64,000 bases of DNA, from NCBI GenBank assembly GCA_014338005.1, contig QUBZ01000006.1, forward strand, positions 1 to 64,000. Reading direction: 5' to 3'. Below the pieces are notes generated by a model. The model worked only from the letters and a program-made list of their open reading frames with translations. It was not told the DNA's origin and made no database searches. The DNA is from Chloroflexota bacterium (GTDB taxonomy: Bacteria > Chloroflexota > Anaerolineae > Aggregatilineales > Phototrophicaceae). Of the stretch, positions 49,917-57,533 are shown piece by piece (within the stretch, counting starts at the first letter, position 1; the number at the start of each line of letters is the position of its first letter). A program made the position numbers and the translations under genes.

Positions 49917-50747
49917 CTAGGCAGAGGCTTTTTCGACGGGGAACTGGATTTCGGTTACAGCGTCCGCCGGGGCACAGCCGCCCGCCAGATAGATTTCGCG
50001 CGGCGGGCCGACCACACGGTAGCCGTTGGCCTCGATCCAGCGGCCAATCGCCAGGTAGACATCACCCAGGCCGCTGTAATCACCTTTGTGGACGGCGCAG
50101 GCCGCCTGCGGCACGGCGGGCAGGTCATGTGCCGTCATGTGCCGTCCACCCGACAGGTCAATCGTTTGTGGGCTGCCGGCTGCTACCGGAAAGGCAAACT
50201 CGATGTCCATGTCAGCCGCCGCGAATGCTTCGTCATAGTACAGGCAGAACGGCGGAGCGATCATCTCCACGCCGGCCATCTGGAGCGACTGCATGGTTTC
50301 ATTCCAGATGGTTCCAAGGTGGTCGAAGGTCGGCACGATTTGCCGCAGCGAAAGGATACGCTGTGCGGGCAAAGGCTTGAGAAGCACTTCATAGTCGGGC
50401 ATTTTATCCTCCATTTCGATTTGTCTCAGGCGGGCTTCCACCCGCGCCAGCCGTTCCTGCTCCTCGCGCACGCGCTGCTGAAGTTCGGCCTGTTTGAGCC
50501 GGAACATGCCACGAAGCTGCTCCGGCGTCAGGCATTCGTCCAACACCTGCGCGATCTGTTCCAGCGACAGCCCCAGGTCTTTTAGCGCCAGGATGCGGTT
50601 AAGCCGGGGAAGCTGGTCAAACGAGTAGTAGCGGTAGCCGGTGAAGCGATCAATGCGCGCCGGTTTGAGCAGGCCGAGTTCGTCGTAGTAGCGCAGGGCG
50701 CTCACCGGCACCTGTGTCAATCTCGAAAAGTCACCGATCTTAAACAT
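49917..50747 (-). CDS. MerR-family regulator with GyrI-like effector domain
   Basis: 276 residues. The N-terminal MerR HTH reads MFKIGDFSRLTQVPVSALRY, then YYDELGLLKPARIDRFTGYRYY. A coiled coil (about 80-115) carries the dimer contact. The C-terminal half (about 120-270) is a GyrI/AraC-effector-binding-type barrel: YEVLLKPLPAQRILSLRQ, ending in EIQFPVEK, as in BmrR. It should sense a small hydrophobic ligand and activate a promoter with 19-base spacing. AAGGGGAAA precedes the ATG. Its regulated gene is not evident; the neighbours are nfi and a broken nuclease gene. Confidence 0.9.
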   Translation of the reverse strand: MFKIGDFSRLTQVPVSALRYYDELGLLKPARIDRFTGYRYYSFDQLPRLNRILALKDLGLSLEQIAQVLDECLTPEQLRGMFRLKQAELQQRVREEQERLARVEARLRQIEMEDKMPDYEVLLKPLPAQRILSLRQIVPTFDHLGTIWNETMQSLQMAGVEMIAPPFCLYYDEAFAAADMDIEFAFPVAAGSPQTIDLSGGRHMTAHDLPAVPQAACAVHKGDYSGLGDVYLAIGRWIEANGYRVVGPPREIYLAGGCAPADAVTEIQFPVEKASA

Positions 50748-50901: not shown

Positions 50902-51540
50902 TTATATCGCCAGGTCAAGCGGCAAATCGCTGATGTCTCGTAAACGATGGCCGTCTATCAGCGTCATCAGCATATCCAGTTGGGCGTCGCTCTGCGTTCG
51001 ATTCACGGCTTCGATCAGCTCATTCAGCGCGAAATGATAGACATGATCCACATCGCCCGTTCCCAGAGCCACCGAAGCCAGGCGTGTCGGCAGCGGCTCA
51101 GCCGTAACAACCATGACATGCGGCGTGCGCCCTTTTCGATTGCGGATGAGGTTCAAGCCCTCGGTGCGGACATTCTGGGCCCGGTCGCTGCGAATCGTCC
51201 ATTTACAGGAGATGCTGGCGTGAAGTATCAGATTGGGCTGATTCCTGGCTCTCAAAGAACTATAATGGCAAAAATCGTCCGCATCACCGACAACCGTCTG
51301 ATGTGTGTTAATTTCCTCATCCGTCACCGGATAACGCGCAACGACAATATCCGGCGTGATGAGATAATCGCCCCCCAAAGCCGCCCTTAACTGTGGGTTG
51401 TCTGAAACCGCCGCCTGAATCGCGGCCAGATGATGATACTGGTCAAAACCGGCAATAGTCGCATTCAGCGAGAATCGCCACTGTCCAGGCCGCAGATGAT
51501 GCAGCAGGGCAAAAGCCTGCTCTAAAAAATCTCTGGTCAC
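50902..51540 (-). pseudogene. NgoMIV-type restriction endonuclease, C-terminal three quarters
   Basis: 212 residues from GTG 51540, strongly resembling NgoMIV, a tetrameric nuclease for GCCGGC: LLHHLRPGQW, TPDIVVARYPVTD, LHASISCKWTIRSDRAQN, LNLIRNRKGRTPHV and ISDLPLDLAI. The catalytic Asp (PDIVV) and Lys (SCKW) are present, but the family's first Glu lies just upstream (PGQGLGSQFE, one codon before GTG 51540 and outside the open frame after the last stop). The true N-terminus is encoded at 51606-51803 in a different frame. At least two lesions separate the parts, so the gene looks broken. Confidence 0.8.
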
Positions 51541-51605
51541 AAGTTCAAACTGGCTGCCCAGTCCTTGACCGGGGATGAGGTCTGAGGTTAGTCAACGACC
51601 AGCCG

Positions 51606-51803
51606 CTAAAGCGGCCGGCTTGTCCCTGGCGCTGCGCCCGCCGCTTCGGTGACAGCAGCAGTGATGGCGGGTGCATCCGAGACAATATCCCGACTGGCGC
51701 GGCTGGCTTTATCGGCGATGTTAACCAAATAATCACGATTTGTCCGCAGTACATCCCGACAAAGACGCTGATGATACTGACGACGTAATTCGGCGATGCT
51801 CAT
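51606..51803 (-). pseudogene. N-terminal fragment of the NgoMIV-type nuclease gene
   Basis: ATG 51803 overlaps the methyltransferase stop as TGATG and reads MSIAELRRQYHQRLCRDVLR, then DYLVNIADKASRASRD, as in the first helices of NgoMIV-like enzymes, before a TAG at 51606-51608. The C-terminal frame only opens below an in-frame TGA at 51592-51594. So no single frameshift joins the two parts. Confidence 0.65.
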
Positions 51804-53110
51804 CACTGCCCCTCTACAGGTTTAAAGAAGCCAATCACGTATTCCTCGTGCATTCGCTTTTCAATCTGTGAATCGGCGTCGGTTTGCCGGCGCGCCGGCA
51901 TCATCCGGCGATTACGGTCTATGCGCCGGACGCCAATATGCGGCACTTCAAAACCGAGACTCTGTCCGATCTCTGCCAGGCAGCCGTGTACGTTCTTATC
52001 CCCCCGCAGGCGCGAACTGCCTACCACCATCACGGCAGCTTTTCCCGACTTTAATACGCGGAACATCTCACGCAGAACGCGGGTCATTTCGGAATAATAG
52101 CGTTCGACTGCGCGGCCTTTTTTATGATCCAAAGCGGCGACGGCGGCGATCACCTGCCGCGTTTGATCGGGTAGCGGCTCGAATTCCACGCCGTTTACTG
52201 CCTCGCTGCCAATATAGGCTTTACGAAGCTCCGACAGCGAGTCGAGTTTATAACCGAGCCAGACCAATGAGAATTTATGGGCGCGCATGTAGTCAATCGC
52301 GTTTGAGGGATACGGCGGGGATGTGACCACCAGGTCTATTGTACTGTCGCGCAGCGAAAGTGCCTGAGCATTGCCCATACTGATAATCGGAGCGAGGCCG
52401 TTTGCAGGCAGATCAGCCAAGCTGCGAAGGTTGCGCTGAAAGCGTTTTTCAAACTCCTTCACAGGTGACCGGTATCTTTTGTCCGCGACCTTATGCGGGC
52501 GCGTATGCGCCAGATCAAAAGCCAGCGAAACCCCGCCCGACTTTGTAATAATGATGGCTGAAAGTGTCAGGGCGAGAAAAGCGCGAATCCGGTCATCACG
52601 CACCTGCCGGATTTCGTCCAGCAGGAAAATCAACTCCCGCTGCGACTCGCGGTCAAACCAGTAATCCACAAACTCCTGTGTTCGTGTATCCAGAAGCATC
52701 GTCGGGATGTCATCAGCAGCATCAAACAGGCGTGTTTTTACGCGGCTGATGACTCGGCTGCCGGCCTCTGCCGCTTCGATTAACGGGAGCGGCGTGGTTT
52801 TTACGCGGCAGACATGCAGCGCCAATGGGTCAATATCCACAATCACAGGCTGCCGGCCGGCGACAAACGCCTCCAGCGGCGTGGTGCCAGAACCGGCCAT
52901 CGGATCGAGAACATGATCGCCCGGCATCGTCAGCGCCTCAATAAACTTTCGCGGCAGCTGCGGGGGGAACTTGGCCGGAAAAGCGTGAAGATCGTGCGTA
53001 TATTCGCTGCTGGAGCGATTGTGAAAGTCCAGGTCATCGGACAGCAGCGCGATCAGTTTTTCTTTCAGCCGTTCCGCTTCGCGCAGCTGGGCATCCTGGG
53101 GATATAACAT
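51803..53110 (-). CDS. DNA methyltransferase, TSPPY (N4-cytosine) type
   Basis: 435 residues. Motif I DPMAGSGTT is at 69-77 and motif IV TSPPY at 263-267, with EYTHDLHAFPAKFPPQLPRK near the N-terminus. TSPPY marks N4-cytosine methyltransferases; motif I before motif IV is not the usual beta order. It should protect the site of the adjacent NgoMIV-like nuclease (GCCGGC by family, inferred), unlike M.NgoMIV which is a 5-methylcytosine enzyme. The reading frame is intact. TGATG couples it to the nuclease. It follows rpoB after a terminator. Confidence 0.85.
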   Translation of the reverse strand: MLYPQDAQLREAERLKEKLIALLSDDLDFHNRSSSEYTHDLHAFPAKFPPQLPRKFIEALTMPGDHVLDPMAGSGTTPLEAFVAGRQPVIVDIDPLALHVCRVKTTPLPLIEAAEAGSRVISRVKTRLFDAADDIPTMLLDTRTQEFVDYWFDRESQRELIFLLDEIRQVRDDRIRAFLALTLSAIIITKSGGVSLAFDLAHTRPHKVADKRYRSPVKEFEKRFQRNLRSLADLPANGLAPIISMGNAQALSLRDSTIDLVVTSPPYPSNAIDYMRAHKFSLVWLGYKLDSLSELRKAYIGSEAVNGVEFEPLPDQTRQVIAAVAALDHKKGRAVERYYSEMTRVLREMFRVLKSGKAAVMVVGSSRLRGDKNVHGCLAEIGQSLGFEVPHIGVRRIDRNRRMMPARRQTDADSQIEKRMHEEYVIGFFKPVEGQ

Positions 53111-53249: not shown

Positions 53250-57182
<3,933 letters not shown>

Positions 57183-57533
57183 CGCACCGCTCCTCAATCC
57201 ATTCAGCTAAACGAGAATGCCTCGAGTCGCAACACTCATCGGCAGATTATGGGGAATAGATAATCCGATCAAAAGAGGAACAACCTAGAAAAACGCGAAC
57301 CATAAGTATAACGAAAATAGCCATCTGAGTCAATCATCAGTTTGGCGCGGTCTGTATGCAAGTCGCACAAAAGTACGACGCAAGGTTATTTTATTCGTAC
57401 ATTTTCCCTGCGCGAAATTAACCTGTCTTAAGGCTTGTGCGCGCCTTTTGGCATTTACAATGAATTTATCCTTACTACAAATTGCCCTGCACGCCGTCGT
57501 AAACCGCGCCAGCGCGCCAAGAGGTAAACAGCT
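57183..57533. other. Divergent regulatory region between rpoB and the Cache sensor
   Basis: No gene is seen here. It holds the rpoB leader (about 115 bases) and promoter. On the plus side it has an inverted repeat GTACGA (57373-57378) and TCGTAC (57395-57400), a possible -10 TACAAT at 57456-57461 with weak -35, and the GAGGTAA site before the ATG at 57534. Nothing else could be assigned. Confidence 0.5.
57305..57333 (-). promoter_or_regulatory. rpoB promoter
   Basis: On the minus strand TTGACT (57333-57328) is followed after exactly 17 bases by TATACT (57310-57305), each one mismatch from the sigma-70 consensus. Transcription would start near 57298, 115 bases before the rpoB start. Confidence 0.8.

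Follow-up and report, generated by a model that had tools for sequence, protein, structure and literature searches.

The restriction endonuclease NgoMIV (PF09015; 1FIU, 4ABT; CCGG family, G/CCGGC) is the closest described relative of the nuclease considered here, and its partner in Neisseria is a C5 methyltransferase. Two of its residues matter for what follows: Q63, which contacts the minor groove, and E70, an active-site residue that is conserved across the CCGG family (PMC4652773, PMC6344858). The second point of reference is the TnpB-carrying type of mobile element exemplified by ISDra2, whose guide RNA (reRNA) spans the tnpB 3' end, the right end of the element and the flanking DNA (PMC8612924). 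Loss of the nuclease with retention of the protective methyltransferase is an ordinary route of decay for restriction-modification systems of this kind. The locus described below combines the two: a nuclease gene that is broken, very likely by the scar of a TnpB-type element that inserted and was then deleted except for its right end.

A restriction-modification cassette with a broken nuclease gene

The window (the whole stretch of 64,000 nucleotides that was analysed) holds, between rpoB and a MerR-type gene, a two-gene Type II restriction-modification cassette consisting of an N4-type methyltransferase followed by an NgoMIV-family nuclease (Table 1). The nuclease gene occupies 50902-51803 on the minus strand, downstream of the methyltransferase gene, and its ATG at 51803 overlaps the methyltransferase stop codon (TGATG). 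In another genome, G008, rpoB adjoins the MerR gene directly and the cassette is absent, so that it is either mobile or often lost; three of the 17 genomes of the genus carry the nuclease, and the same three carry a close methyltransferase.

Table 1. Positions of the cassette, the scar and the boundary genes in the window
Feature	Position	Strand	Basis
Intact DNA methyltransferase, 435 aa	51803..53110	(-)	open frame; PF01555 63.6 bits; PADLOC MTase_II
Nuclease N-terminal coding remnant, ~40 codons, to left junction ...GGGATATTG	51683..51803	(-)	alignment with L002 and L003
92-nt scar, read as 5'-truncated TnpB (IS200/IS605-type) right end	51591..51682	(-)	replaces 33 nt of gene
Right-end hairpin AGCCGGCCGCTTTAGCGGCTGGTC, directly before terminal GTTGAC	51597..51620	(-)	stem-loop fold, TTTA loop
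TAG closing the N-terminal frame; tnpB stop codon, same reading frame	51606..51608	(-)	C205 translation
TGA ahead of the C-terminal frame, within the element's terminal TTGAC	51592..51594	(-)	aligned copies
Nuclease C-terminal coding remnant; D140- and K187/E201-type motifs (TPDI, SISCKW...E)	50902..51590	(-)	PF09015; 1fiu_A alignment
Codons matching NgoMIV Q63 (CAA 51567-51565) and active-site E70 (GAA 51546-51544)	51544..51567	(-)	1fiu_A alignment
MerR/GyrI-like regulator, downstream boundary gene	49917..50747	(-)	PF13411 + PF06445
rpoB, upstream boundary gene	53250..57197	(-)	

The C-terminal part of the nuclease matches PF09015 with 308 bits (6.8e-92; cut-off 23.2) in a profile search and the NgoMIV chain 1fiu_A at 1.8e-70: membership of its sequence in the NgoMIV family is far beyond chance. 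An earlier note on this DNA had described an NgoMIV-type nuclease, broken, beside an intact methyltransferase; these matches and the interrupted frame bear it out for the nuclease, as the open frame in Table 1 does for the methyltransferase. Its coordinates also proved exact on re-reading: nuclease sequence from 51803 to 50902, an N-terminal frame that ends at TAG 51606, a C-terminal frame that opens after TGA 51592, and a third frame (ORF 51545-51754) that bridges the gap between them.

What is left of the gene? Read for membership of PF09015, it offers no continuous coding frame that includes the counterpart of E70, being broken at 51606/51592, and to judge by its frames it is a remnant of an NgoMIV family member, not a working one. 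The first ATG, GTG or TTG start in the C-terminal frame is the GTG at 51540, which follows closely after the codons for the Q63 and E70 counterparts. The enzyme is very probably inactive, since the C-terminal part has no start upstream of that GTG, would be made without its E70 and Q63 counterparts, and has lost the N-terminal part.

The break is readable because intact relatives exist. A search of genome contigs yielded 80 nuclease loci, of which the nearest, L002 (Anaerolineae MAG AMX57), has the same gene order and a continuous nuclease of 281 aa; the frame of L003 is likewise continuous (290 aa). Residues 6-281 of the L002 protein align end to end with NgoMIV 7-286 (4.4e-80), and the L002 DNA is ~96% identical to the window on either side of the break. 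Set against L002, the gene in the window is intact to 51683, is followed by 92 nt that end in GTTGAC (51591), and resumes with TAACCTC at 51590. In place of these 92 nt L002 has 33 nt, and the net gain of 59 nt shifts the frame. Both stop codons (TAG 51606 and TGA 51592) fall inside the 92-nt block. The earlier note had held that two or more lesions were needed to account for them; a single foreign block supplies both, and it leaves a sequencing slip without support as well.

The low dN/dS of the C-terminal part against L002 (0.095, with 0.138 for the methyltransferase) makes the break look recent when measured against the divergence of the two lineages. Within the genome, the sole candidate copies of the uninterrupted site carry 3 mismatches in 21 and are at other locations.

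Two observations touch on the cassette more broadly. The dS of the MerR gene (window 49917-50747 against L002:4793-5617) is 0.52, compared with 0.11 for the methyltransferase and 0.18 for rpoB; this higher divergence suggests recombination near the cassette. And at L027, L029, L032 and L037 an NgoMIV-family nuclease frame with an in-frame stop or a frame shift stands beside a homologous methyltransferase: unless these are draft errors, nuclease decay recurs at four further loci.

Origin of the 92-nt block

The block recurs about 20 times elsewhere in the same genome, with 88-100% identity across the part that contains the right-end hairpin; the hairpin itself finds 21 matches in the genome, a reversed control none. 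The other copies usually lie at contig ends, as expected of a repeat that stops assembly. All of the aligned copies end in TTGAC, and the sequence after it differs in each. Directly upstream of the copy on contig C205, and continuous with it, is coding sequence for a TnpB C-terminus, zinc ribbon included (PF07282, 85.6 bits), and this tnpB frame crosses the block and closes at the same TAG (...AITAAVTEAAGAAPGTSQPL, compared with ...AITAAVTEAAGAAPGTSRPL in the window), which makes the TAG at 51606 tnpB's own stop. Judged by these copies, the 92-nt block is the right end of a TnpB transposon. A mobile unit of 92 nt in its own right is unlikely: the other copies extend upstream past TATTG as element, as far as their contigs go.

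When folded, the right end forms a closed stem that encloses a variable hairpin, followed by a terminal hairpin. The inner stem comes in three sequence variants that for the most part still pair, with both partners altered in 5 pairs. Such folding suits the 3' portion of a guide-RNA scaffold for TnpB, by analogy with ISDra2; Rfam gave chance matches only at the scar. One genome holds two variants of the element (L094-L101 and L083-L092) whose inner stems in the right end differ and yet pair.

The element as a whole is less accessible. In this fragmented draft, in which the element body is unassembled, no complete copy that includes a left end or tnpA was found; the genome gave a single Y1 match, on C49, inside a frame of 974 aa that may have nothing to do with the element. 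A full-length element was likewise not recovered from the relatives of the genus, where copies also lie at contig ends, and a search of G005, the genome with the intact nuclease, found no match to the element. G015 has a related element with a different right end. At L102:1210-1542, in mid-contig, there is a short relative of the TnpB element (~320 bp) with hairpins at both ends and without tnpB; it is apparently non-autonomous, and right ends similar to it are numerous in genome G006.

These comparisons suggest an order of events. A TnpB-carrying element of the IS200/IS605 type would have entered the nuclease gene within its 5' part and in the gene's own orientation--the simplest start, because the 3' boundary of the scar is the element's normal end. 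A deletion at a microhomology would then have removed, in one step, the 5' bulk of the element together with the adjoining nuclease codons. The left edge of the scar is in fact ambiguous by 5 nt (to 51687), and the TATTG responsible occurs in gene (GATATTG) and element (CCTATTG) alike. As a result the gene has 92 nt of element where 33 nt of its own are missing, and the N-terminal nuclease frame now reads in frame into the last TnpB residues and stops at the tnpB TAG. A nuclease gene broken by the scar of a TnpB element, with insertion and deletion probably in that order, is the account that we hold with high confidence.

Could the join be an artefact of assembly, the true locus containing an intact nuclease or a full-length element, with two contigs misjoined at the repeat? 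The repeat does break the assembly, nearly all of its other copies being at contig ends. Several contigs start exactly 99 nt before the end of the element, which suggests an assembler overlap of 99. Scar and microhomology together measure 97 nt, close to this apparent overlap, and the join depends on reads not seen; on the other hand, it is because 97 nt falls just below 99 that this copy could be assembled through. A graph assembler would require far more than the 5-bp TATTG overlap for joining, however; a full-length element would have ended the left contig within the element's left end and not 33 nt short in the gene; and the gene order equals that of L002 on either side of the break. A misjoin is accordingly very unlikely. 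It is somewhat less probable still that the C-terminal fragment is made alone, continues to cut or bind DNA, and is under selection for doing so. The fragment does keep the TPDI and SISCKW...E motifs, and its dN/dS is low, but a recent break explains the low value equally well, translation from the first ordinary start would miss the E70 and Q63 counterparts (PMC6344858), and the N-terminal part is gone.

A more elaborate possibility can be imagined on top of insertion and deletion: the retained right end might still be transcribed, yielding a short guide RNA for TnpB that carries sequence of the nuclease gene as its guide, and TnpB copies elsewhere in the genome would then cut incoming intact nuclease alleles, locking the locus in its nuclease-off, methyltransferase-on state. 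We give it very little credence. Finally, there is next to no chance that the break consists of two or more independent point lesions or that a programmed frameshift or bypass keeps the nuclease active: two stops in different frames with a third frame across the gap would suit either, and the hairpin at the break could resemble a recoding signal, but the block is foreign, a genome-wide repeat carrying tnpB coding sequence and stop, so that point lesions are rejected by the alignment with L002 and L003 (the two closest relatives, which need no recoding) and bypass at the hairpin is rejected because the hairpin is part of the repeated element and 33 nt of the gene are missing.

The methyltransferase and its partners

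The earlier note took the methyltransferase to be of the N4-cytosine type, and the motifs agree: an AdoMet motif I, DPMAGSGTT, at aa 69 precedes a TSPPY-type motif IV at aa 263, although m4C and m6A enzymes are not separable with certainty by motif alone. The match to the PvuII N4 methylase (1boo) is weak and covers residues 41-95 only.

The same note took the pairing of an NgoMIV-type nuclease with such an enzyme to be non-homologous to the Neisserial one. The difference in class stands, provided that the Neisserial enzyme is indeed of the C5 type: the partner in the window belongs to PF01555, and a search of the same genome for a C5 methyltransferase (PF00145) gave no match. But the partner is no oddity, nor is the pairing peculiar to this locus. 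A homologue of the methyltransferase is found with the nuclease in 75 of the 80 relatives, nearly always adjacent and upstream, so that an N4-type partner is the norm for these nucleases. Of the remaining five, L070, L080 and L081 have a C5 methyltransferase close by, and in the other two the nuclease lies at the edge of its contig. (The frame at L080:2792-3604, minus strand, opens as a C5 methyltransferase and continues as an FlhB-type export domain, and probably reflects truncation or a join made in the draft.) The relatives are spread over phyla that, judged by record titles, include Chloroflexota, Deltaproteobacteria, Ignavibacteria, Planctomycetota and Acidobacteriota; within Chloroflexota and across many further phyla, nucleases of the NgoMIV lineage mostly pair with N4-type and not C5 methyltransferases.

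The methyltransferase would have stayed under purifying selection until recently and has probably become an orphan, as the earlier note had proposed from its intact state beside a broken nuclease. GCCGGC occurs 108 times in the window where 152 are expected, a mild avoidance that says little, many palindromes being avoided more strongly. Over positions 1-64000 the strongly depleted ones are CCCGGG (0, with 28 expected), GGCGCC (7, with 91), CGGCCG (7, with 101) and TCCGGA (1, with 18); depletion of these GC-rich palindromes suggests past or present restriction of those specificities.

Relation to known systems

The finding is real, well explained and well resolved, and the event itself an ordinary one. 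Its interest is threefold: it is a clear case of a restriction system losing its cutter, with a scar that can be read base by base against intact relatives; it cautions that a single mobile-element event can account for stops in two frames; and it draws attention to the partnerships of the nuclease lineage noted above.

How does the locus compare with the systems that it most resembles? The intact relative L002 is homologous to NgoMIV over the full length and shares with it PGQ...FE, TPDI and SISCKWTIRSDR; unlike NgoMIV, the gene in the window is split by a scar, and its partner is a methyltransferase of the PF01555 N4/N6 type, of another class than the C5 partner of the Neisserial system. With the TnpB elements of the IS200/IS605 type (ISDra2, for example, with reRNA or omega RNA at the right end) the block has in common a right end that overlaps the 3' end of tnpB, a terminal hairpin, a fixed 3' boundary and a variable flank; unlike those elements, it retains 92 nt only, and has neither left end nor tnpA nor the body of tnpB. 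In having an intact methyltransferase beside a broken nuclease gene the cassette is like other orphan methyltransferases that have survived nuclease loss; it departs from the generic case in that the loss can be traced to the scar of a specific mobile element, and looks recent.
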